This document shows positions 4,507-51,883 of a stretch of 64,000 nt of DNA, one piece after another; position 1 is the first letter of the stretch; the number at the start of each line of letters is the position of its first letter. The translations under genes were made by a program, and so were the position numbers. A model generated the notes under the pieces. That model made no database searches. It was not told where the DNA came from and saw only the letters and a program-made list of their open reading frames with translations. The stretch spans positions 715,315-779,314 of the forward strand of contig NZ_LT745763.1 of the NCBI RefSeq assembly GCF_900166595.1, given 5' to 3'. Source of the stretch: Virgibacillus dokdonensis. Lineage in GTDB: Bacteria; Bacillota; Bacilli; Bacillales; Amphibacillaceae.

Positions 4507-4612
4507 TCTCTTCTTATCTTCAAGCGTTACGCTTCTGGAATTAGCACAGTGCAAAAGATGCCTGTTGCTGGGGTATCATAGGGGCCAGTCCCTCCACCTC
4601 TCTGGATAAGAT
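4507..4612 (-). promoter_or_regulatory. SAM-I (S-box) riboswitch
   Basis: The minus strand reads CTTATCCAGAGAGGTGGAGG, then GGGACTGGCCC, GCAACAGGC, GTGCTAATTCCAGAAGCG and AAGATAAGAAGAG. These are the conserved P1-P4 elements of the S-box aptamer. It controls the homocysteine methyltransferase gene through the hairpin at 4460-4490. SAM binding should stabilise P1 and favour termination. Confidence 0.95.
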
Positions 4613-39149: not shown

Positions 39150-39178
39150 TTGACAAAATACCTAAGGGGGTATAAAAT
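39150..39178 (+). promoter_or_regulatory. Promoter with CstR-type operator upstream of cstR
   Basis: TTGACA (39150-39155), a 17-base spacer and TAAAAT (39173-39178). The spacer is filled by ATACCTAAGGGGGTAT (39158-39173), which fits the CstR operator pattern ATACC(C)-N-GGGTAT. The first gene starts about 350 bases further on, past a repeat copy. Confidence 0.75.
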
Positions 39179-39261
39179 GGGTTTGTAGCATGAAAATGAT
39201 GCACCAATGAGGATGGTCTCGTGGTCAACTTATTTTATATTATACAAAGAATGAAATCGTA

Positions 39262-39480
39262 GATTTGGAGAAAAGTCAAGTTTTCTATCATTATAGGAAA
39301 GTATAAAATCATCGCCCAGCAACGAGGCGACTTCACGATATTGCCCTAAGCTAAGTCATTATTGGTTCGTTGCTAAGAGGAAGGCCGACTAAAAACGGGC
39401 TAGCGCCCACGTCGGTATAACTCTGTTTTAGTGATGATTCCTAAATCTTTCGTTAATTTCGTAAAGATAGCAGTTTGAAC
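39262..39480 (+). repeat. Dispersed repeat, A fragments with module B
   Basis: An A tail (gtcaagttttctatc) and head (attataggaaagtataaaat) are followed by module B (cgcccagcaacgaggcgact, taagctaagtcattattggt, gactaaaaacgggctagcgc, ctctgttttagtgatgattc). It sits between the CstR-type promoter and cstR. Confidence 0.75.
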
Positions 39481-39525
39481 ATGAAGTGGATTTAGATATA
39501 ACTTTGAGGAAAGGAGTAGACGATC

Positions 39526-39780
39526 ATGAAATACGATGCAAAAGTAAAAAATCGTATGAAACGTATAGAAGGACAAGTAAAAGGTATTATTAAAATGATG
39601 GAAGAAGAAAAAGATTGTAAAGATGTCGTCATGCAGTTATCAGCTGTAAAGAGTGCCTTAGATAGAACTTCAGCACTTGTAGTTAGCAAAAATCTGGAGG
39701 CTTGTATTCGTCAAGCAGATGATGAAGATGCAGAACCTTTAATTAATGAAGCGGTCAATTTGCTTGTAAAGAGTAGATAA
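39526..39780 (+). CDS. cstR: CsoR-family persulfide-sensing repressor, CstR type
   Basis: An 84-aa all-helical repressor of the CsoR/RcnR family. C31 (EKDCKDVVMQ) and C60 (KNLEACIRQ) are present. The His of the copper-binding Cys-His-Cys set is replaced (VVSKNLEAC), so the protein resembles CstR, which senses sulfane sulfur by linking these cysteines, rather than copper-sensing CsoR. B. subtilis YrkD is the positional counterpart. Palindromic ATACC(C)-N-GGGTAT sites near its own promoter and that of the dioxygenase support the call. AGGAAAGGAG precedes ATG. Confidence 0.88.
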   Translation: MKYDAKVKNRMKRIEGQVKGIIKMMEEEKDCKDVVMQLSAVKSALDRTSALVVSKNLEACIRQADDEDAEPLINEAVNLLVKSR

Positions 39781-40025
39781 AGCATCTTTTTTGCACGATA
39801 GATTTGAGGCTGGTATAAAAAAATACGCTTATTTGGTAAAAGGATAGTTCTAAACAAAGAAAACCAGTTGGTCTAGTCATACTTGTTTGATCCATGTGTG
39901 TCTTAATATATTATTACTCACTCTTGATACTATGATGGATAACATGAAGAGCTATTAGAAAACAAAACCGATATATAAAAAATTTTTCGAAAATAATACC
40001 TATACCCCTATAAGGAGAGAGTGAT

Positions 40026-40385
40026 ATGGAAATAGTGCAATGGGTGCTCATTGCTATAGCAGTTGTGTTTATAGTTAGTAGGTTTATGCCGGTAAAAGGC
40101 GTGACACAAATGACTGTACAAGAAGTAAAAAACAAGTTGAAAGATAGAAAAGTACAATTTATTGATGTCCGTACCCCGCAAGAATATAAGGCAAATCATC
40201 AAAAACCATTTAAAAACATACCGTTACACGAGCTAATGAATCGTTGTAACGAATTAGATAAGCAAAAAGAAGTCGTCGTTATTTGTCAAAGCGGTATGCG
40301 TAGTATGCGTGCAGCAAAAATATTAAAAAAACAAGGATTTGGAAAAATAACTAACGTAAAAGGTGGCATGGGTGCCTGGATATAG
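40026..40385 (+). CDS. Membrane-anchored rhodanese-like sulfurtransferase
   Basis: A 119-aa protein: one N-terminal membrane helix (residues 3-20), a short linker, and a single rhodanese domain with FIDVRTPQEY and active-site C87 in VVICQSGMRSMRAAKIL. The anchor should hold the domain at the inner face of the membrane, ready to take sulfane sulfur from a membrane quinone oxidoreductase or low-molecular-weight persulfide (inference). ATACCCCTATAAGG lies shortly before the AGGAG site and may be a CstR half-site. First gene of the sulfurtransferase group. Confidence 0.9.
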   Translation: MEIVQWVLIAIAVVFIVSRFMPVKGVTQMTVQEVKNKLKDRKVQFIDVRTPQEYKANHQKPFKNIPLHELMNRCNELDKQKEVVVICQSGMRSMRAAKILKKQGFGKITNVKGGMGAWI

Positions 40386-40453
40386 GGGGAGAGTGCTGTT
40401 AGAGATAATAGGCGAATATCAACGTCTAAATATACTATACAAGGAGTCGTAGT

Positions 40454-40807
40454 ATGGCATTGTTGTTTATGAGTATAGTTGTTCTAATTCTATATTTTTC
40501 CTACCAAAGATATTTCCCTGTACGGGGAGTTAGTAGCTTAGATGAAGATGAATTATTTGTTAAAGATGATCAAACCGTTTTAGTTGATTTAAGAGATTAT
40601 AATAAATCTTATAAAGATGCGCTGGATCGAGCTTTATGTTTACCGTTAGCTTATTTAAATCGGCATTATCAAGACATTCCAAGCAACTCTGTTATTTTAG
40701 TTGCTTCAAATAGTGTAGAAAAAAATATTGCTGCTAGATTTTTATGCAACAAGGGGTATGCTGTCAAAGGCTACTATGTAAGAGACGAAAAAAGCTGCTC
40801 TGATTAG
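40454..40807 (+). CDS. Membrane-anchored rhodanese-like protein without catalytic cysteine
   Basis: A 117-aa protein with the same plan as its neighbour: an N-terminal membrane helix (residues 2-17), RYFPVRGVSSLDEDEL like RFMPVKGVTQMTVQEV, then a rhodanese fold with VLVDLRDYNKSYKDA. Where the active-site loop should read CxxGxRS it has VASNSVEKN, so it cannot carry persulfide there. Two other cysteines (near residues 62 and 97) remain. AAGGAG lies before ATG. It may be a regulatory or docking partner of the active copy, or a decaying duplicate. Confidence 0.8.
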   Translation: MALLFMSIVVLILYFSYQRYFPVRGVSSLDEDELFVKDDQTVLVDLRDYNKSYKDALDRALCLPLAYLNRHYQDIPSNSVILVASNSVEKNIAARFLCNKGYAVKGYYVRDEKSCSD

Positions 40808-40992
40808 TGAGTAGCTTCAAAGCGAAGGTGAAGCGCCGTATCATTTTACCGAGTAACATGGCAGATGAATTTATAGTTGACAAATCATTAGATAATAAAT
40901 ATTATTAACAATAGTGATTAAACAAGTCACCCATTTTTTTATAGTGAACAATACCCCTACGCCTATATATATAAAAAGAAAGGAGTTTATGG

Positions 40993-41472
40993 ATGGCTGA
41001 AAAAAAGAGGACGACAATTATTCTATTTAGTGGTGAATACGATAAAGCGATGGCTGCTTATATTATTGCTAATGGTGCTGCTGCCTATGATCATGAAGTA
41101 ACGATTTTCCACACATTTTGGGGGTTAAACGCACTACGCAAAGATAATCAAGCTCCTGTAAAAAAAGGCTTCTTGGAGAAAATGTTTGGAAAAATGATGC
41201 CGCGTGGTGCTGATAAAATGGGACTATCTAAGATGAATTATTTAGGAATGGGGCCAAAAATGATGAAGCAAGTCATGAAAAAGCATAATGCTATGCCACT
41301 TCCTGATTTAATTTCTATGGCGCAGGAGCAAGACATAAAACTACTTGCTTGTACGATGACAATGGATTTATTAGGTTTGCAAAAAGAGGAGTTGCTCGAC
41401 AATATTGAGTACGGTGGCGTAGGAGCATATGTCGGAGATTCCGAAGATGCAAATATAACCTTATTTATATAA
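40993..41472 (+). CDS. yrkE: DsrE/DrsE_2 family sulfur-carrier protein, YrkE-like
   Basis: A 159-aa DsrE-like protein with the long-form insert (residues about 45-95, rich in Met, Gly and Lys). The carrier cysteine lies in IKLLACTMTMDLLGL near residue 118. It corresponds to B. subtilis YrkE. DsrE proteins hand sulfane sulfur between TusA and rhodanese partners in the cytoplasm. AAAGGAG precedes ATG, and an ATACCCCTA half-site lies about 45 bases upstream. Confidence 0.88.
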   Translation: MAEKKRTTIILFSGEYDKAMAAYIIANGAAAYDHEVTIFHTFWGLNALRKDNQAPVKKGFLEKMFGKMMPRGADKMGLSKMNYLGMGPKMMKQVMKKHNAMPLPDLISMAQEQDIKLLACTMTMDLLGLQKEELLDNIEYGGVGAYVGDSEDANITLFI

Positions 41473-41498
41473 AACAAACAGCTCTTGGAGGGTGAAAA

Positions 41499-41798
41499 AT
41501 GAAGGAAATTACAACACAAGATTTGATAAAGAAGTATCAACAAGATCAACAAATAAAGATTATTGATGTTCGGGAAGATGATGAAGTAGCGCTAGGGAAG
41601 GCCCCTGGAGCACTCCACATCCCATTAGGAGACGTAGCAAATCGTGTCCAGGAATTAAACAAGGATGAACATTATTATGTCATTTGCCGTTCTGGTGGTA
41701 GAAGCGCCACTGCATGTAAAATTTTAGCAGAAAACAACATTGATTGTACAAACATAGCTGGAGGCATGCTTGCTTGGGATGAAGAAGTAGAAATATAG
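41499..41798 (+). CDS. Single-domain rhodanese
   Basis: A 99-aa soluble rhodanese with IIDVREDDEVALGKAPGALH and active-site C63 in YVICRSGGRSATACKIL. It is a complete small sulfurtransferase moving sulfur between thiosulfate or persulfides and thiol acceptors. It lies 26 bases after yrkE and 11 before the TusA-rhodanese gene, with TTGGAGGGTG as ribosome site. It is part of the sulfur operon. Confidence 0.92.
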   Translation: MKEITTQDLIKKYQQDQQIKIIDVREDDEVALGKAPGALHIPLGDVANRVQELNKDEHYYVICRSGGRSATACKILAENNIDCTNIAGGMLAWDEEVEI

Positions 41799-41809
41799 GA
41801 GGAATGAAG

Positions 41810-42382
41810 ATGAGTATTACTGCAAATGAAGTATTAGATGCCAAAGGGCTATCTTGCCCTATGCCAATTGTTAAAACGAAAAAAGCGATTAGCAATTTAA
41901 AGGCTGGAGAAGTTATTGAAGTGCAAGCTACAGATAAAGGTTCTACAGCGGATATAAAAGCTTGGTCTGAAAGCACAGGGCATCAATACATTGGCACGGT
42001 AGAAGAAGGAGACGTGTTGAAACATTACATCCGCGTAGCTAGTGAAGCGGAAAAGAAAGAAGAAACGAAGCATGATAACGTGGTTAATTTAAATGACTTA
42101 CAAAAGAAAGTAGAAGCAAAGGATACTATTTCTATCCTTGATGTGCGTGAGCCGGCAGAATTTGCCTTTGGTCATATACCTGGGGCAATCAATATTCCTT
42201 TAGATCAATTGGATACAAGACTAGAAGAATTAGATAAAGAAAGAGAATTATATGTTATATGCCGGACGGGAAGCCGTAGCGATTTAGCTTCGCAAAAGCT
42301 TACTGCTCATGGATTTAAGGATGTGATCAACGTTGTTCCAGGTATGACCAAGTGGGAAGGATCACTTGAAAAAAATAACTAA
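41810..42382 (+). CDS. yrkF: TusA-rhodanese fusion, YrkF-like
   Basis: A 190-aa two-domain sulfur carrier. Residues 1-75 are TusA with C16 in AKGLSCPMPIVKTKKAI; a charged linker follows; residues 90-190 are rhodanese with ILDVREPAEFAFGHIPGA and C150 in YVICRTGSRS. It matches B. subtilis YrkF and is related to S. aureus CstA. The fusion allows sulfur transfer between the two cysteines in one chain. I start at ATG 41810, six bases after AGGAGG; ATG 41804 abuts that site. Confidence 0.93.
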   Translation: MSITANEVLDAKGLSCPMPIVKTKKAISNLKAGEVIEVQATDKGSTADIKAWSESTGHQYIGTVEEGDVLKHYIRVASEAEKKEETKHDNVVNLNDLQKKVEAKDTISILDVREPAEFAFGHIPGAINIPLDQLDTRLEELDKERELYVICRTGSRSDLASQKLTAHGFKDVINVVPGMTKWEGSLEKNN

Positions 42383-42400
42383 ATATGGAGGAATAAAAAC

Positions 42401-42799
42401 ATGGCAAATACAAAAGTGGCAATTATTGCAGCAAATGGGGGACTGTTTGATGCATATAAAGTTTTCAATTTAGCAACAGCAGCTGCAGCATCGGATGCAG
42501 AAGTAGGCATTTTCTTTACATTTGAAGGATTAAATTTAATTCATAAGGAAGCTCATAAAAACCTTCCATTGCCAGAAGGAAAAGAGCATTTTGAGGAAGG
42601 CTTTAAACAAGCAAATGTACCATCCATTGCAGAATTATTAAGTATTGCGCAAGAAATGGATGTAAAAATACTAGCCTGTCAAATGACAATGGATGTAATG
42701 AACTTAGAAAAAGATCAGCTCGTTGATGGTATTGAAGTCGCTGGTGCAGCATCTTTTATTGAATATGCGAAAGATGCCAATATGACGCTAACATTCTAA
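42401..42799 (+). CDS. DsrE/F-like sulfur-carrier protein
   Basis: A 132-aa DsrE-type protein, shorter than the first because it lacks the central insert. The conserved cysteine is in VKILACQMTMDVMNL, near residue 95. Comparison with 40993-41472 shows the same fold ends (FTFEGLNLI / FHTFWGLNAL; DANMTLTF / DANITLFI), so the two are paralogues. TATGGAGG precedes ATG. It may exchange sulfur with the TusA proteins on each side. Confidence 0.88.
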   Translation: MANTKVAIIAANGGLFDAYKVFNLATAAAASDAEVGIFFTFEGLNLIHKEAHKNLPLPEGKEHFEEGFKQANVPSIAELLSIAQEMDVKILACQMTMDVMNLEKDQLVDGIEVAGAASFIEYAKDANMTLTF

Positions 42800-42925
42800 A
42801 CTAGGAAATAAACGAGTGAGTTACTTTATTCTAAATGGTAGATTATATTAGATAAATGTATTTAAAATCAGGGATATCCCTGTTTGACGCAGATATACAG
42901 TCAAATTTAAAGGAGGATTTTATTT

Positions 42926-43153
42926 ATGGAAGCAGCAAAAGTATTAGACGCAAAAGGGTTAGCATGCCCAATGCCAGTAGTAAGAACAAAGAAGGCGATC
43001 GAAGAAATAAATGCAGGAGAGATTTTAGAGGTGCATACAACAGATAAAGGTTCAAAAAGTGATTTAACGGCGTGGGCTAAGTCTGGTGGGCATGAATTAG
43101 TAAAAGAAGCCGAAGAAGGCGATGTATTTAAGTTTTGGATTAAAAAGGCTTAA
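42926..43153 (+). CDS. yrkI: TusA-like sulfur carrier, YrkI-like
   Basis: A 75-aa TusA protein with the persulfide cysteine C14 in AKGLACPMPVVRTKKAI. It is close to the N-terminal domain of the fusion encoded two genes upstream and corresponds to B. subtilis YrkI. AAAGGAGG precedes ATG. A hairpin follows at 43161-43184, so expression of the downstream SulP gene may be reduced or separately set. Confidence 0.93.
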   Translation: MEAAKVLDAKGLACPMPVVRTKKAIEEINAGEILEVHTTDKGSKSDLTAWAKSGGHELVKEAEEGDVFKFWIKKA

Positions 43154-43160
43154 TAACATT

Positions 43161-43184
43161 TCTCGGGGGCACTTTCCCCCGAGA
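43161..43184 (+). terminator. GC-rich hairpin between tusA and sulP
   Basis: TCTCGGGGG / CCCCCGAGA, a 9-bp stem with a 6-base loop. No T tract follows, so it may act as a partial terminator or an RNA-stability element inside the operon. Confidence 0.5.
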
Positions 43185-43309
43185 CTAGAAAACGATCTGA
43201 ACGTTTCCTAATAATGTAATAAGTGAATTGGAGGTGGCTCCATTGGGATGCAAGGCGCAAAATCCATGAAAAGCGTCTGTACCCGATTCAGCAGGAAGGG
43301 GTTTTTAAA

Positions 43310-44992
43310 TTGTGGAAAAAACTAGTTCCAGCGTTTGATTGGTTGCCAAATTATAATCGTAGTGATTTCAGTGGTGACTTATCAGCCGGATTAATTGTAG
43401 CCATTATGCTAATCCCACAAGGTATGGCTTATGCCATGTTAGCTGGTTTAGACCCAGTTATCGGACTATATGCTTCAACAATTCCTTTAATTATCTATGC
43501 GCTTTTTGGTACATCAAGACAGTTAGCAGTAGGTCCAGTAGCAATGGTGTCTTTACTTGTTCTAAGTGGTGTTTCAACATTAGCCGAACCCGGATCATCG
43601 GAGTATGTTTCGCTCGTTCTTTTACTCATGCTAATGGTAGGATTGATTCAATTATTATTAGGGGTTCTTAAGCTAGGATTCTTAGTTAACTTTCTGTCGC
43701 ATGCTGTCATTAGTGGCTTTACTTCAGCAGCAGCGATCATTATCGGTTTGAGTCAATTAAAGGACCTAACTGGTGTTACGTATGAATCTGGAAAAAGTGA
43801 AGTGTTTTTGCTTATCTTAGAATCTGTAAAACGAATATCCGAAATTAACCCAATTACATTAACGATTGGTATTGGTAGTATTGTTTTGTTAATTCTATTT
43901 AAAAAATATGTAAAAAAGATACCTGGCCCTATTGTAGTGGTTACACTAAGCATCTTAGCAGTGTATGTTTTCAATTTATATGAAGATGGTGTATCGATTG
44001 TAGGGCAAGTTCCTAAAGGACTGCCAGCATTGTCTTTCCCAACATTTACGATGGATTCCATCGTTGCTTTGCTACCAATAGCGTTTACCATTACCTTTGT
44101 TGGCTTTATGGAATCTATTGCTATGGCAAAGGCTATCGCAGCTAAAGAAAAGTATAAAGTAAATGCAAATCAGGAATTAATAGGCTTAGGTTTGGCAAAT
44201 GTTGGAGGTTCCTTTTTCTCTGCTTATCCTGTAACAGGTGGTTTTTCTAGATCAGCGGTCAATTACCAAGCAGGTGCAAGAACGCCGTTAGCTTCAATTA
44301 TTACGGCAGTGCTCATTATGCTAACATTACTTTTTTTCACAGATTTATTTTATTATCTTCCAAAGGCTGTGTTGGCGGCAATTATTATGGTAGCTGTCTA
44401 TAGTTTGATCGATTTTCATGAAGCTAAAAAACTATTTAAACTTAACAATGCAGACGGTTGGACTTGGATACTAACATTTTTGGCAACATTAGTGCTCGGA
44501 ATTCAAACAGGTATTTTAATCGGTATTGTATTTTCACTGCTTGTCTATGTTAGTAAAAATGCTTATCCACATATTGCGGAATTAGGCTTTGTGGAAAGTC
44601 GTGGTGTGTATAAAAACAAGCAACGTTATCCTGATGCAATGGATGATCCAGAGGTAATCATCTTTCGTGTAGATGCTGATCTGTTCTTCGCTAATATGTC
44701 ATTTGTTGAAGATAAATTGTGTAATCGGTTAGCAGAAAAACCAGATACAAAGTATGTTATTATGGATTTTTCCGGAGTGAATTCGATGGATGCTGTTTCC
44801 ATTCATTCATTGGAGGAAATGATGCAGACTTGTAATCAGCATACGCAATTTTTATTTGCGGGTATTAAAGGGCCTGTCATGGATGTATTAGAAAAAGCAA
44901 GCTGGGATAAAAAATACCATCAGATGATTCACTATATTACTATTGAAGAAGCAGTAAAATCATTGAAAAATAGGGTGAAGAACGATGGATGA
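43310..44992 (+). CDS. SulP family anion transporter with STAS domain
   Basis: A 560-aa transporter: about 12 membrane segments with the SulP signature (GLIVAIMLIPQGMAYAMLAG near residue 24, PVTGGFSRSAVN) and a C-terminal STAS domain (VIMDFSGVNSMDAVSIHSL). I prefer TTG 43310, eight bases after AGGAAGGGG, because homologues start near there; GTG 43223 has no ribosome site. SulP proteins carry sulfate, bicarbonate or other anions. The 8-base overlap with a carbonic anhydrase gene favours bicarbonate, while the sulfur cluster favours sulfate, sulfite or thiosulfate. The substrate is left open. Confidence 0.9.
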   Translation: MWKKLVPAFDWLPNYNRSDFSGDLSAGLIVAIMLIPQGMAYAMLAGLDPVIGLYASTIPLIIYALFGTSRQLAVGPVAMVSLLVLSGVSTLAEPGSSEYVSLVLLLMLMVGLIQLLLGVLKLGFLVNFLSHAVISGFTSAAAIIIGLSQLKDLTGVTYESGKSEVFLLILESVKRISEINPITLTIGIGSIVLLILFKKYVKKIPGPIVVVTLSILAVYVFNLYEDGVSIVGQVPKGLPALSFPTFTMDSIVALLPIAFTITFVGFMESIAMAKAIAAKEKYKVNANQELIGLGLANVGGSFFSAYPVTGGFSRSAVNYQAGARTPLASIITAVLIMLTLLFFTDLFYYLPKAVLAAIIMVAVYSLIDFHEAKKLFKLNNADGWTWILTFLATLVLGIQTGILIGIVFSLLVYVSKNAYPHIAELGFVESRGVYKNKQRYPDAMDDPEVIIFRVDADLFFANMSFVEDKLCNRLAEKPDTKYVIMDFSGVNSMDAVSIHSLEEMMQTCNQHTQFLFAGIKGPVMDVLEKASWDKKYHQMIHYITIEEAVKSLKNRVKNDG

Positions 44993-45536
44993 ACAACATA
45001 TCATTCAAAGTAATCAAGATTTTGTTAAAAAAACGCAATTGGAAGACCCGGATCTTTTCAATCAGTTACAACAAGGGCAACACCCTGATTTCTTCGTATT
45101 AGCATGTAGTGATTCTCGAGTTAGTCCATCAGTCATTTCGCAAATGAAGCTTGGCAATATGTTTGTCCACCGAAATATTGCTAACCAAGTAGCGAAAGAG
45201 GATGCAAGTTTTTCAGCGAGTCTTTATTATGCCTTGGTCCATCTTAAAGTGAAGCATATTATTATAAAGGGGCATACAGAATGTGGTGGTATTCACGCTG
45301 CTTGGAGTGGTAACAATGAAGAAGAATTAGCACCATGGATTGCTAACATCCGCAGTAATTTACCAGATTCAAGTTCTAACAAAGAAGTCTCCATGGATGA
45401 GCTAACGAAAACCAATATCATGAAACAGGTAGAGCATATAAAAGATCATCCTATCTACAAAGCATATGGAGAAGGAGTAAGCGTAAGTGGATTATTGTTC
45501 CATCTTGACAGTGGAAAATTAGAAAAAATCGTCTAA
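44985..45536 (+). CDS. Beta-class carbonic anhydrase
   Basis: A 183-aa zinc enzyme interconverting CO2 and bicarbonate. The zinc ligands and active-site pair are complete: C41, D43 and R45 in ACSDSRVSP, and H97 and C100 in KGHTECGGIHAAW. Its ATG overlaps the SulP stop by 8 bases, so the two are translated together, and similar SulP-carbonic anhydrase pairs and fusions are known. It is the last gene before the dioxygenase unit. Confidence 0.94.
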   Translation: MDEQHIIQSNQDFVKKTQLEDPDLFNQLQQGQHPDFFVLACSDSRVSPSVISQMKLGNMFVHRNIANQVAKEDASFSASLYYALVHLKVKHIIIKGHTECGGIHAAWSGNNEEELAPWIANIRSNLPDSSSNKEVSMDELTKTNIMKQVEHIKDHPIYKAYGEGVSVSGLLFHLDSGKLEKIV

Positions 45537-45547
45537 GTTTTAAGTGG

Positions 45548-45590
45548 TTGACAATGTGGATATATTATTCTATAATACCTCATAGGGTAT
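45548..45590 (+). promoter_or_regulatory. Promoter with overlapping CstR-type operator
   Basis: TTGACA (45548-45553), 17 bases, TATAAT (45571-45576): a perfect consensus promoter. ATACCTCATAGGGTAT (45575-45590) overlaps the -10 and start region, the expected place for repression by CstR. Confidence 0.85.
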
Positions 45591-45615
45591 AATGAAGAGA
45601 AGTTATTTTTTTGGC

Positions 45616-45645
45616 TTTAACAATACCCTGCGGGGTATTGTTAAA
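45616..45645. promoter_or_regulatory. Second CstR-type operator, 30-bp palindrome
   Basis: TTTAACAATACCC-TGCG-GGGTATTGTTAAA: 13-base perfect arms around a 4-base centre. The core ATACCCTGCGGGGTAT fits the CstR pattern. It lies in the leader, about 25 bases after the first operator, so a repressor could bind both. Confidence 0.85.
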
Positions 45646-45698
45646 GAGTAAGGATCCAAAAGTAAGTAAATAAAAACGTAACAAATGGAGGTATGGAG

Positions 45699-46826
45699 AT
45701 GTCTTTTACAGCAATGAAGTCTCATGAAGTAGCAAGAAAGGTCATCCAAAAGAAAGAATTATTTATTTTGGATGTTCGTAATGAAAGTGATTTTGCAGAT
45801 TGGAAGATAGAAGGAGAAAATTTTTCATATTTAAACGTCCCTTACTTTGATTTAATTGATGGTGTAGATAGTATTTTAGATAAATTGCCAACAGATAAAG
45901 ATATTTTAGTTGTTTGTGCGAAGGAAGGATCTTCTGTAATGGTTGCTGAAATGCTGTCGGAACAGGGATTACAAGTTTTCTATTTAGAAGGCGGTATGAA
46001 AGCTTGGAGCGAACACATGGAGCCAATAAAAGTTGGTGATTTAACTAACGGTGGTGAAATGTATCAATTTGTTCGCTTAGGAAAAGGATGTCTCTCTTAT
46101 ATGGTAGTGTCTAATGGTGAAGCGGCAATTATTGATGCTACACGCATGACAGGAATTTTCACTCGTTTTGCGAAGGAGCTTGGCGTTACTATTAAGCATG
46201 TGCTCGACACACACTTGCATGCAGATCATATTTCTGGTGGTAGAAGTATCGCTAAAGAAACAGGAGCGACGTATTGGCTTCCACCGAAAGACGCTGGAGA
46301 AGTTGTATTTGATTATCAAGCTCTAGAAGACGGGGAAGAAGTGAAGATTGGTAATACAACCATTAATATCCATGCTTTATATAGCCCGGGGCATACCATT
46401 GGTTCTACATCCTTTGTCGTCGGTGAAAAATATTTATTGACAGGTGATATTCTATTCATTGATTCTATTGGTAGACCAGATTTAGCTGGACTTGCAGAAG
46501 ATTGGGTAGGAGATCTACGCGAAACGTTGTATCATCGTTACCGTGAATTATCAAATGAACTCATCGTTCTTCCGGCTCACTTTATGATTATCGAAGAATT
46601 GAATGAAGATGGTACAGTTGCTGAAAAGCTGGGAACACTATTTGCGAAGAACCACGGATTAAATATTGAAGACGAAGCGGAATTTAGAAAACTAGTAACG
46701 GAGAATTTACCACCTCAACCAAATGCGTATCAAGAAATTCGTCAGACGAATATGGGGAAAATTACTCCTGATGAGGAAAAACAACGTGAAATGGAAATCG
46801 GTCCTAATCGTTGTGCTGTTCGATAA
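45699..46826 (+). CDS. yrkH: Rhodanese-persulfide dioxygenase fusion, YrkH-like
   Basis: A 375-aa enzyme. Residues 1-107 are a rhodanese with [12 protein letters not shown] and C73 in [16 protein letters not shown]. The rest is a metallo-beta-lactamase-fold dioxygenase with [11 protein letters not shown] (171-181), [15 protein letters not shown] and LPAHF supplying metal ligands. It should oxidise glutathione-, bacillithiol- or CoA-persulfide to sulfite, with the rhodanese moving sulfur on. The order rhodanese then dioxygenase matches B. subtilis YrkH and differs from S. aureus CstB, where the dioxygenase comes first. I start at ATG 45699, seven bases after GGAGGT. Confidence 0.92.
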
Positions 46827-46837
46827 TAATAAGTGAA

Positions 46838-46883
46838 AGAGAAAACTGTCTTAAAACGCTTGTTTTGGGGCAGTTTTCTTTTG
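46838..46883 (+). terminator. Terminator of the dioxygenase unit
   Basis: AGAGAAAACTGTC pairs imperfectly with GGCAGTTTTCTTTT around a loop containing AAAACGCTTGTTTT, ending in TTTT. The tail of a module A repeat (agccaagtttttctacc) follows at once. Confidence 0.75.
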
Positions 46884-49377: not shown

Positions 49378-49523
49378 AGCATTCCTTCGGGGCAGGGTGA
49401 AATTCCCGACCGACGGTGAAAAGTGGTACGCCACTTTAAGTCCGTGACCCGTTTGATATTCGCGCAAACGGTGGATCTGGTGTGATTCCAGAACCGACAG
49501 TTAAAGTCTGGATGGGAGAAGGA
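49378..49523 (+). promoter_or_regulatory. FMN riboswitch (RFN element)
   Basis: The conserved RFN blocks are all present in order: TTCGGGGCAGGGTGAAATTC, CCGACCGACGGT, AGTCCGTGACCCG, GGATCTGGTGTGATTCCAG, ACCGACAGT and AGTCTGGATGGGAGAAGGA. It is oriented toward ribE, but that gene lies about 2.7 kb away beyond a terminator, an intron and repeats. No ribD or other gene directly follows. Confidence 0.96.
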
Positions 49524-49707
49524 AAAAGGTAATTCCATATTTGGATAGTTGTTCCAAACTAGATGGCTTTATTGTGCCTGTTTATCATGAAGATGAATTG
49601 GGTTTTTAGCCATTCGAAAAGAATAACAGATATAAAAGAAAGCGCTAAACTGTATGTTTTTTCCCATAAAATCCGTACACTACATGAAATAACCAAGTTC
49701 TTTTACA

Positions 49708-49986: not shown

Positions 49987-51883
49987 GTGCGCCCTGCATG
50001 GGCGAAAACTTGGTGGTGAAAGTCCACTACAGGCATGGCAGTAGGAACTGTTAGCGAAAGACAAGGTGGCTATCGCGAGGTAGTGGCTGAAGGAAGTCGG
50101 ACGCAAACTCCTGAACTGACGAACAGAAACTAGATAGAAGGCTGAATTAGGTCGGATAAGGTTGCCTAACAAACTGAAGTCCAATACTGCCCGAAACCTA
50201 TACAGTAAATCTAGCAGTTACATGGGAGGAAAGTTTTCGCTCTTACCGGGGGAGGTCTTGTGAGGGTGCAGTGGGAGTTGAATGATAACAAACCAGCACA
50301 ACCAAGACGATGACGTCTTGGTGAATCACAAGAAGTCAGCAGAGGTCATAGTAATGTTACTTGACGAAACATGAAGGACCGAACAATAGTCGTTTTGAAA
50401 GCTCTAGGAGGTGTGTAAGGTGCGACAACTGCAGAAAACAGGAGAATCTGGCTATCGGCAGAGAGATAGTGTGGAACATGAAGGGTATGTCGAAGCGCAT
50501 AGTGGCTTACATGGTGAAAAGAACAATCAAAATGGTGTATCCAATCTGTTTGAAAGAATCCTGTCAAGGAACAATCTCAATCAAGCTTACCTTCAAGTCG
50601 TCAGAAATAAGGGGGCAGCCGGTGTAGACGGTATGACGTGCGACCAACTACTTCCATACTTGAAGGAACATAAAGAGGAACTATTACTCCAGTTATATCA
50701 AGAAAAATACAAACCGCAACCCGTCCTGCGGGTTGAAATCCCGAAACCAGACGGTGGAAAGAGAAAACTGGGGATTCCGACAGTCATCGACCGGATGCTT
50801 CAACAAGCGATTAACCAAGTGCTCCAACCAATATTTGAACCAAAGTTCTCCGATAATAGTTTTGGGTTTCGTCCAAAACGTAGTGCACATCAAGCCATCA
50901 TACGGGCAAAGTCATACTACGAACAAGGGTACAAATATGTGGTGGATTTGGATATGAAATCCTACTTCGATACGGTAAATCATGACAAACTGATGTATTT
51001 CGTGGAAAAACAGATAGATGATAAGCGCGTGCTTCGCTTGGTAAGACAGTATTTATTGAGTGGAATTATGATAAACGGTATCTTTGAGAAATCGGAAGAA
51101 GGAACGCCGCAAGGTGGAAACTTATCGCCGTTACTCAGTAATATTTATCTGAATGAATTAGACCAACGATTAGAAAAGCGTGGTCACAGATTCGTCCGCT
51201 ATGCGGACGACTGTAATATCTATGTGAAAAGCAGGAGAGCAGGATATCGGGTAATGGATAATATAACGAACTTTCTTGAGAAGGATCTGAGTTTAACTGT
51301 TAACCGAGAAAAGAGTGCGGTTGGAAGTCCTTTGAAACGTAAGTTTCTTGGCTTCTGCTTATTAGCTACGAAGAAGGGTGTCAAAATTCGTCCGCATAAT
51401 AAAGCGAAAGTGACCGTCAAAAGGAAACTCAAGCGGATCACCAAACGCAATCGTGGACGACATCTCGAAGTGATTCTTAAAGAAATCCAACAACTTATGA
51501 CAGGTTGGATAAACTACTATGGCATAGGGGAAATGAAAGGATTTATAAAGAATCTCAATGGATGGTTGAAGCGAAGAATTAGACAATATCTCTGGAAGCA
51601 GTGGAAAAACCCACGCACAAAAAGGAAAAATCTAATTCGCTTAGGTATCGATAAACATAAAGCTTATGAATGGTCGAATACAAGAAAGGGCTACTGGGTT
51701 ATATCCAGTAGTTATGTACTCCATCGTTCATTAACAGATAAAGAACTGGCATCGAGAGGATATAAAGACATCGCTCTACAATACCAGTTCGTACACTCAA
51801 ACTATTGAACCGCCGTATACCGAACGGTACGTACGGTGGTGTGAGAGGGGCGTAAAGTTACTTAACTTTTCCCTCTACTCGAT
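49987..51883 (+). mobile_element. Group II intron, IIC-like
   Basis: The 5' end GTGCG and CCCTGCATGGGCG open a structured leader of about 430 bases. The 3' end has a domain V-like hairpin (GAACCGCCGTATACCGAACG with GTACGTACGGTGGTGTG) and a domain VI-like GAGAGGGGCGTAAAGTTACT, ending CTACTCGAT. It encodes a reverse transcriptase without a visible endonuclease domain and lies directly after a terminator hairpin, both IIC traits. The 3' edge is supported by the repeat at 11396, which has tctaggaaattataaaattt uninterrupted. Length about 1.9 kb; it appears intact. Confidence 0.88.
50420..51808 (+). CDS. ltrA: Group II intron reverse transcriptase/maturase
   Basis: A 462-aa intron-encoded protein. 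RT blocks include KGAAGVDGMT (65-74), FGFRPKRSAHQAI, the catalytic YADD at 261-264 and GTPQGGNLSPLLSNIYL; the maturase domain with LKEIQQLMTGWINYYGIG follows. A basic C-terminal tail is present but no HNH endonuclease, typical of class C. GTG 50420 is chosen as start, behind AGGAGGTG. It helps the intron RNA splice and retrotranspose into terminator-like DNA. Confidence 0.94.
   Translation: MRQLQKTGESGYRQRDSVEHEGYVEAHSGLHGEKNNQNGVSNLFERILSRNNLNQAYLQVVRNKGAAGVDGMTCDQLLPYLKEHKEELLLQLYQEKYKPQPVLRVEIPKPDGGKRKLGIPTVIDRMLQQAINQVLQPIFEPKFSDNSFGFRPKRSAHQAIIRAKSYYEQGYKYVVDLDMKSYFDTVNHDKLMYFVEKQIDDKRVLRLVRQYLLSGIMINGIFEKSEEGTPQGGNLSPLLSNIYLNELDQRLEKRGHRFVRYADDCNIYVKSRRAGYRVMDNITNFLEKDLSLTVNREKSAVGSPLKRKFLGFCLLATKKGVKIRPHNKAKVTVKRKLKRITKRNRGRHLEVILKEIQQLMTGWINYYGIGEMKGFIKNLNGWLKRRIRQYLWKQWKNPRTKRKNLIRLGIDKHKAYEWSNTRKGYWVISSSYVLHRSLTDKELASRGYKDIALQYQFVHSNY

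Follow-up and report, generated by a model that had tools for sequence, protein, structure and literature searches.

A yrk-type sulfane-sulfur island of Virgibacillus dokdonensis with SulP and carbonic anhydrase in the place of TauE and a membrane-anchored pseudo-rhodanese

In the cited passages of the cst/yrk papers, the exporter of persulfide-derived sulfite is a putative one only, namely TauE, and the question hence arises which protein serves as the exit in a cluster of this type that has no tauE gene. This question is posed by an island of eleven genes at 39.5–46.8 kb of a 64-kb stretch of the 4.6-Mb genome of Virgibacillus dokdonensis (contig NZ_LT745763.1, positions 715,315 to 779,314; the whole stretch is called the window below), in which a SulP anion transporter and a beta-carbonic anhydrase are encoded amid sulfur-carrier genes (Table 1). 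The same island raises a second question, since one of its two membrane-anchored rhodanese-like proteins has lost the catalytic cysteine.

In our view, the island is rather probably a CstR-controlled, yrk-type operon for the disposal of sulfane sulfur whose exporter slot has been re-equipped. By analogy with the CstR family, persulfides or polysulfides would cross-link C31 and C60 of the repressor and thus free the promoters; rhodaneses, TusA and DsrE proteins would hand the sulfane sulfur to the rhodanese-dioxygenase, which would oxidise it to sulfite; and a SULTR-type, probably proton-coupled SulP in the place of TauE would move the sulfite (or sulfate) out. The carbonic anhydrase could handle the H+, HCO3- and CO2 arising from acid production by the dioxygenase and from the coupled transport, and the pseudo-rhodanese may be a membrane-tethered accessory of the regulon without catalytic activity, which perhaps binds sulfur or serves as a docking partner.

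The exporter slot and its occupants

To the window we added 60 loci from relatives, taken around hits to CstR, DsrE2, the pseudo-rhodanese or SulP. A locus was called a cluster when three or more of five core families were present in it (DsrE2, TusA-rhodanese, DsrE, TusA and dioxygenase), each labelled by its best profile hit at E <= 1e-5, some of these hits being weak (generic rhodanese or lactamase-fold proteins). So defined, clusters are present in 40 of the 61 loci, a fraction that is no genome frequency because the 60 loci had been chosen for carrying the hits named. Among those outside the 40 are L053, which has no gene of the families, and L054, where SulP and carbonic anhydrase are accompanied by two core families only. 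TauE is found in 32 of the 40 clusters, SulP in six, both in none and neither in two (P 7e-6, without phylogenetic correction). In two genomes of the same genus (L025, L028), tauE lies between tusA and the dioxygenase gene, which is the slot of SulP and carbonic anhydrase in the window and in two others; two more same-genus genomes (G003, G005) have TauE in another gene order. The window cluster itself has no TauE, with SulP and carbonic anhydrase in its place; the remainder of the genome was not searched for TauE. The first-pass annotation of the window had taken the SulP-carbonic anhydrase pair for an addition to described cst/yrk operons; the pair is there, but it is no simple addition, as most clusters examined have TauE instead. 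A swap of this kind even within one genus represents a natural experiment.

A scan of named genomes extended the picture. It covered the best 80 SulP loci among the matches listed, of which 79 were used (in L135 the SulP open reading frame was not called), and found a sulfur-core gene in the locus in 53 and at least two in 31. A carbonic anhydrase gene directly adjoins SulP in 21 of the 79, all of them among the 53 sulfur-core loci (P 4e-5, uncorrected for relatedness), and a motif search returned no carbonic anhydrase in the remaining named SulP loci. The pair is found, among others, in Alkalihalobacterium, Planococcus, Litchfieldia and Alkalihalophilus pseudofirmus. A dioxygenase-type protein of 465–495 residues is encoded near SulP in Saprospiraceae, Syntrophaceae, Trueperaceae and other groups as well. 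Within the 61 genomes, seven of the eight SulPs of the window's subfamily stand in sulfur clusters, the eighth being that of L071. Twenty other SulP loci of the same genomes served as controls. Neither profile nor motif searches gave a carbonic anhydrase in any of them, and genes for TusA or DsrE were likewise absent; a membrane rhodanese lies nearby in L191, a CsoR-like gene about 5 kb off in L193, and L186 gives a weak 30-bit hit to the dioxygenase profile.

Pairs and fusions of SulP with carbonic anhydrase are known as putative bicarbonate transporters. The pair might thus be a unit for bicarbonate/CO2 acquisition that came to lie in a sulfur operon by chance, and the SulP family does include a Na+-coupled bicarbonate carrier, BicA (PMC8298490). 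By profile, however, the window SulP is far closer to AtSULTR4;1 (PDB 7lhv; E 6e-155), its closest solved relative, than to 6ki1 (E 1.2e-35). The latter is presumably the membrane domain of BicA. AtSULTR4;1 is a plant sulfate transporter working by H+/sulfate symport, in which mutation of Q112, Y116, S392 or R393 led to near-complete loss of transport and E347 is required for H+-driven transport; a carbonic anhydrase partner is not mentioned in the cited passages (PMC8298490). All five residues have their equivalents in the window SulP (Q66, Y70, S342, R343 and E297, respectively). Of the 79 named loci, all have Q, Y and R at this site, 77 have E and 76 have S; the 20 control SulPs, aligned as one per locus (L180 has two, of which the better-scoring one was taken; short contigs make up two of the loci), have Q, Y and S in two each, R in 17 and E in 19. 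A SULTR-type site argues for a dianion of the sulfate/sulfite type as substrate, and not for a bicarbonate carrier of the BicA type. Since, in addition, all 21 SulP genes adjoining a carbonic anhydrase gene lie by sulfur genes and the same slot holds TauE in two same-genus relatives, we consider the acquisition of bicarbonate improbable here; a BicA-like role was downgraded after the comparison of the anion site.

A further alternative is that SulP imports sulfate for assimilation and that its position in the operon is largely unrelated to the export of sulfite, the characterised protein with this site being an H+/sulfate symporter (PMC8298490). The alternation with the putative sulfite exporter TauE, from which we infer export by SulP, and the proximity of SulP to dioxygenases in distant phyla both fit the export of a product better, so that we attach little probability to an importer. 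It may be speculated that a proton-coupled SulP could run outward if the outside is alkaline, with the carbonic anhydrase as a possible source or sink of H+. In the latter protein, C41, H97, C100, D43 and R45 are invariant across six sequences, as in beta-carbonic anhydrases; we take them to be the Cys, His and Cys ligands of Zn and the Asp-Arg dyad.

Several observations weigh against a re-equipped exporter slot. A proton symporter normally imports; 26 of the 79 named SulP loci have no sulfur-core gene; and in 12 of the 31 named clusters SulP lacks an adjacent carbonic anhydrase. TauE and SulP occur together in four of these 31 (Halalkalibacter akibai and three Planococcus). Moreover, three of the six SulP clusters are from the same genus and several loci come from some of the named genomes, so that the clusters and loci are less independent than the P values assume. 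Of the six, only the three genus members and L070 have SulP directly behind the tusA position; L060 and L069 have it elsewhere in the cluster, and L070 is without carbonic anhydrase. Finally, operator-like sites precede only one of eight SulP genes, none of eight carbonic anhydrase genes and none of 34 TauE genes, and neither sulP nor the carbonic anhydrase gene of the window has an operator of its own; the pair (and TauE) must therefore be expressed from upstream, in the window through a strong hairpin behind tusA. We do not regard TauE and SulP as strictly exclusive of one another in general: the 40 relative clusters obey such a rule, and four of the 31 named ones break it.

One could hence regard the island as an ordinary yrk operon in which the extra genes are passengers without a joint function. 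It does consist mostly of the known yrk set, and gene order varies among the relative clusters. Yet the extras recur across genera with specific residues kept, and the sulP and carbonic anhydrase genes overlap, which makes mere passengers a poor bet compared with a disposal operon that has exchanged its exporter.

A membrane-anchored rhodanese without catalytic cysteine

The product of the gene at 40454–40807 has no match in Pfam or NCBIfam and databases label proteins of this kind "sulfurtransferase" or "hypothetical protein"; the Pfam Rhodanese profile matches 23 of 64 homologues at E <= 0.1, with 2e-4 as the best value. AlphaFold2 predicted one N-terminal helix followed by a small alpha/beta domain (pLDDT 87.8; a relative that ends in a CxC tail reached 92.4), and the best Foldseek matches of the model are rhodanese-domain proteins, persulfide/CoA-disulfide reductases first (TMq ~0.6), which assigns a rhodanese fold to the predicted structure. 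The initial description as a rhodanese-like domain without cysteine holds for the active site, where Ala84 takes the place of the cysteine of CxxGxR(S), and fails for the protein as a whole, which has three other cysteines. Among 131 sequences, a set that includes duplicates, 109 have Ala at the catalytic position and one has Cys there, and D45, R47, P64, R70 and R95 are invariant, so that the protein appears conserved and not decaying. A membrane-proximal cysteine together with one in the tail is found in 59 of the 131; the window protein lacks the proximal one. Its nearest named homologues are from V. dokdonensis (96%), V. pantothenticus (70%), a record labelled Roseburia (66%) and V. proomii (64%).

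In the 61 genomes, 34 of 62 rows were strong hits at E <= 1e-16, the other 28, mostly ordinary rhodaneses, being dropped. The gene lies within 1 kb of CstR in 22 of the 34, as counted from coordinates because the greedy picking of open reading frames had missed CstR in L021, L022, L026 and L052. Eight 18-kb loci (L034, L035, L036, L038, L041, L043, L047 and L075) hold the pseudo-rhodanese and cstR and no other sulfur-relay gene. Sites resembling the predicted CstR operator with at most one mismatch precede 17 of 33 pseudo-rhodanese genes, compared with 26 of 820 unlabelled open reading frames of at least 120 aa (P 2e-15; the 391 below this length, 15 of them with a site, were counted separately). 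By inspection, an M20-type dipeptidase-like gene lies near seven of the eight two-gene loci and a luxS-like gene near five.

Such proximity could mean that the pseudo-rhodanese acts specifically with CstR, as its partner or modulator, and is not an effector that handles sulfur. Against this stands that the gene is kept where the only CstR-related match is a CsoR-type protein with His (G028) or a match of 33% identity (G044), and in G018 (L038), where CstR is interrupted by in-frame stops and the adjoining pseudo-rhodanese is intact; in several genomes it also stands alone with an operator-like site of its own. Because it is kept in these three genomes, the pseudo-rhodanese appears independent of CstR. 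A pure modulator role was downgraded for this reason and now seems rather unlikely to us, though less so than the alternatives discussed for SulP. The retention of a membrane rhodanese without catalytic Cys alongside cstR suggests a non-enzymatic membrane partner of the persulfide response.

When 119 genomes drawn across the phylum were searched, only the window's own pseudo-rhodanese was matched, from which the family looks restricted to the order, and a PADLOC scan of the protein gave no match. The membrane rhodanese without catalytic Cys is an unrecognised family of Bacillales. Within the open-access literature that we searched (titles, abstract starts and passages), neither a Cys-less membrane rhodanese with CstR nor a SulP-carbonic anhydrase pair in a CstR cluster was described. 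As a tentative extension, which we hold with less confidence than the reading of the island itself, the CstR regulons of Bacillales may comprise two unrecognised modules: a SULTR-type SulP with beta-carbonic anhydrase that would take TauE's part in exporting sulfite or sulfate, with the proton/bicarbonate conditions of the salty or alkaline habitats that many host names suggest as a possible driving force; and membrane-tethered, catalytically dead rhodaneses that would serve the persulfide response as docking or sulfur-binding partners, minimally as a two-gene unit with cstR.

Repressor and candidate operators

The repressor had been read as CstR-like with C31 and C60 and with the His ligand lost, and this reading was borne out: of 39 aligned rows, all have Cys at both columns and 37 have Asn at the position of the His ligand. 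A His at this position marks CsoR; it is found in two rows, L029 and L045, both of which match less well and are of CsoR type. The closest solved chain is 7mq1, identical in sequence to 7mq2 and named CstR in the cited passages, according to which persulfide sensing by the Staphylococcus aureus protein joins Cys31 and Cys60 via sulfur (PMC9774590).

Together with these residues, palindromic sites at the promoters point to control of the CstR type. The predicted operators, GC-rich and of the form ATACC-N6-GGTAT, have their only exact copies in the window at 39158, 45575 and 45623, that is, at the promoters of cstR and of the dioxygenase gene. We take this to be the kind of sequence that S. aureus CstR binds, for which the literature searched gave no confirmation. 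The three are among seven exact copies in the genome, and the chance of finding three within 6.5 kb would be about 1e-7, a figure that is partly circular because the pattern was read off these same sites. Genome-wide enrichment is absent (seven sites vs six for the reversed control), and the other four exact copies lie at or inside genes without an evident sulfur role, as judged by eye. Recurrence in relatives is the better, independent support for a predicted operator of this pattern: at one mismatch or less, the 60 relative loci and the window contain 212 sites, compared with a mean of 30 in three dinucleotide-block shuffles, and exact copies also lie 5' of cstR in the genus relatives L021, L022, L025 and L028.

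The hairpin behind tusA precedes SulP in the window and in L021 and TauE in L025 and L028, and L022 has none at that spot. A leader of about 345 nt separates the cstR promoter from cstR (39179–39525), its length varying among the genus relatives. Elsewhere in the genome (contig C15, ~58.3 kb), a second CstR paralogue of 60% identity (L196:9340-9648) heads an apparent arsenic-resistance locus, where inspection points to ArsR-, ArsB- and ArsC-like genes; that 19-kb stretch contains no operator at one mismatch or less.

Table 1. Genes and predicted regulatory features of the island (positions in the window).
Feature	Position	Strand	Evidence or conservation
cstR promoter TTGACA-17-TAAAAT, with exact operator ATACCTAAGGGGGTAT (39158-39173) in the spacer, touching the -10	39150..39178	+	
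CstR-type repressor (YrkD type), C31/C60, Asn56	39526..39780	+	PF02583
Degenerate operator-like site, 2 mismatches, 5' of membrane rhodanese	39996..40011	+	in 4/5 genus genomes
Membrane-anchored rhodanese, catalytic loop CQSGMRS	40026..40385	+	PF00581 1.6e-19; loop in 26/26 family members
Membrane-anchored pseudo-rhodanese, catalytic Cys replaced by Ala84	40454..40807	+	rhodanese fold by AlphaFold2 + Foldseek
Internal promoter-like site TTGACA-17-TATTAT	40877..40905	+	-35 TTGACA kept in 5/5 genus genomes
Degenerate operator-like site ATACCCCTACGCCTAT, 2 mismatches, before dsrE2	40951..40966	+	conserved in 5/5 genus genomes
DsrE2 (YrkE type) sulfur carrier	40993..41472	+	PF13686 1.1e-66
Single-domain rhodanese, loop CRSGGRS	41499..41798	+	PF00581 1.4e-15
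TusA-rhodanese fusion (YrkF type)	41804..42382	+	PF01206 + PF00581
Second DsrE-family protein	42401..42799	+	PF13686 / PF02635
TusA (YrkI type)	42926..43153	+	PF01206 5e-26
Strong hairpin just 3' of tusA, before exporter gene	43161..43184		same spot in 4/5 genus genomes
SulP anion transporter with STAS domain, SULTR-type site Q66, Y70, E297, S342, R343	43223..44992	+	PF00916 1.5e-117, PF01740
Beta-carbonic anhydrase, 8 bp overlap with sulP stop	44985..45536	+	PF00484 4.5e-37
Perfect promoter-like site TTGACA-17-TATAAT before dioxygenase gene	45548..45576	+	
Exact operator at the dioxygenase promoter, overlapping the 3' end of its -10	45575..45590	+	
Second exact operator, 48 bp further, in a longer inverted repeat (by inspection)	45623..45638	+	
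Rhodanese (N-terminal) - metallo-beta-lactamase persulfide dioxygenase (C-terminal)	45693..46826	+	matches 3tp9, 3r2u, 4ysb

Gene content and comparison with known systems

All eleven genes that the first-pass annotation had listed were confirmed on the plus strand, including the two DsrE proteins, two TusA domains, SulP, carbonic anhydrase and rhodanese-dioxygenase; sulP may start at the TTG at 43310 instead, by inspection. The three rhodanese domains before sulP had been called active, which their loops CQSGMRS, CRSGGRS and CRTGSRS would suggest, and a fourth loop, CAKEGSS, sits in the dioxygenase protein. The annotation had made its proposal depend on the extra genes recurring beside CstR in relatives, and there they were found. 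Of the extras, the pseudo-rhodanese and the SulP-carbonic anhydrase pair are both conserved; the catalytic membrane rhodanese is not unusual because it is common in such clusters, the stretches used containing 26 members, each of which has the catalytic loop.

A relay of sulfane sulfur that ends in the rhodanese-dioxygenase, as had been proposed, is supported by the gene content. Aligned to 3tp9, 3r2u and 4ysb, the latter protein has the HxHxDH, PGH, GD and GRPDL elements, as in persulfide dioxygenases; we assume that the HxHxD, PGH, GD and GRPDL-like residues have their usual roles and that 3r2u is S. aureus CstB. In CstB the dioxygenase domain comes first. The idea that persulfide is delivered at the membrane within the island found no support, and no SQR was found there. 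About 2.5 Mb separate the island from the SQR gene of the genome (455 bits to mitochondrial SQR; 246 bits to an NCBIfam SQR model with a cut-off of 525), which stands in a row of sqr, a gene for 184 aa and one for a 490-aa dioxygenase-rhodanese (L219:8513-11779; C15, ~3.287 Mb), and no CstR-like operator within one mismatch is present in the surrounding 18 kb. Being distant and without operator, this sqr-pdo locus makes the island look like a second sulfane-sulfur route beside it.

With CstR, DsrE/TusA/rhodanese carriers and a persulfide dioxygenase, the core of the island is a known yrk-type operon and not new. Its closest counterpart is the yrkD cluster of Bacillus licheniformis, described in the cited passages as 11 co-transcribed genes that answer to YrkD and are derepressed by sulfane sulfur (PMC9918477). 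Both begin with a CstR-type YrkD and share DsrE, rhodanese, a YrkH-type dioxygenase and TusA, regulator sites at two promoters, and a hairpin between yrkI and the exporter gene, there yrkJ; unlike the island, the B. licheniformis cluster has TauE (YrkJ) for SulP and carbonic anhydrase, has ydfQ, nreBC, sqr and pdo, and includes no membrane pseudo-rhodanese among its 11 named genes (PMC9918477). The S. aureus cst operon likewise combines CstR control, a multidomain sulfurtransferase and a persulfide dioxygenase-sulfurtransferase, but has tauE and an in-operon sqr, and its gene table has no SulP-carbonic anhydrase pair (PMC5480029). In Bacillus subtilis, yrkEFHIJ encodes the same kinds of carriers in five genes only, with the putative permease YrkJ for SulP and carbonic anhydrase, and was up by 6.5–11 log2 units with allicin and diallyl tetrasulfane (PMC6943732). 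A precedent for sulP beside persulfide dioxygenase and SQR genes exists in the mto clusters of Methylophaga thiooxydans, where the context is methanethiol oxidase and the cited passages mention neither CstR nor a TusA/DsrE set nor carbonic anhydrase (PMC6548844).

Some minor observations concern the relatives and the remainder of the window. A gene for ~128 aa, DUF302-like by inspection, occurs in 17 of the 60 relative loci (e.g. L048:10081-10464) and is absent from the window cluster. In L073 (10112-12625), a single frame of 837 residues has similarity to both DsrE2 and TusA/rhodanese, and similar long frames are present in G040 and G052. Outside the island, SAM (S-adenosylmethionine) riboswitch matches lie on the minus strand at 4511 and 6072 of the window, and an FMN (flavin mononucleotide) riboswitch match at 49379-49527 is followed just downstream by group II intron matches (50069-50379).

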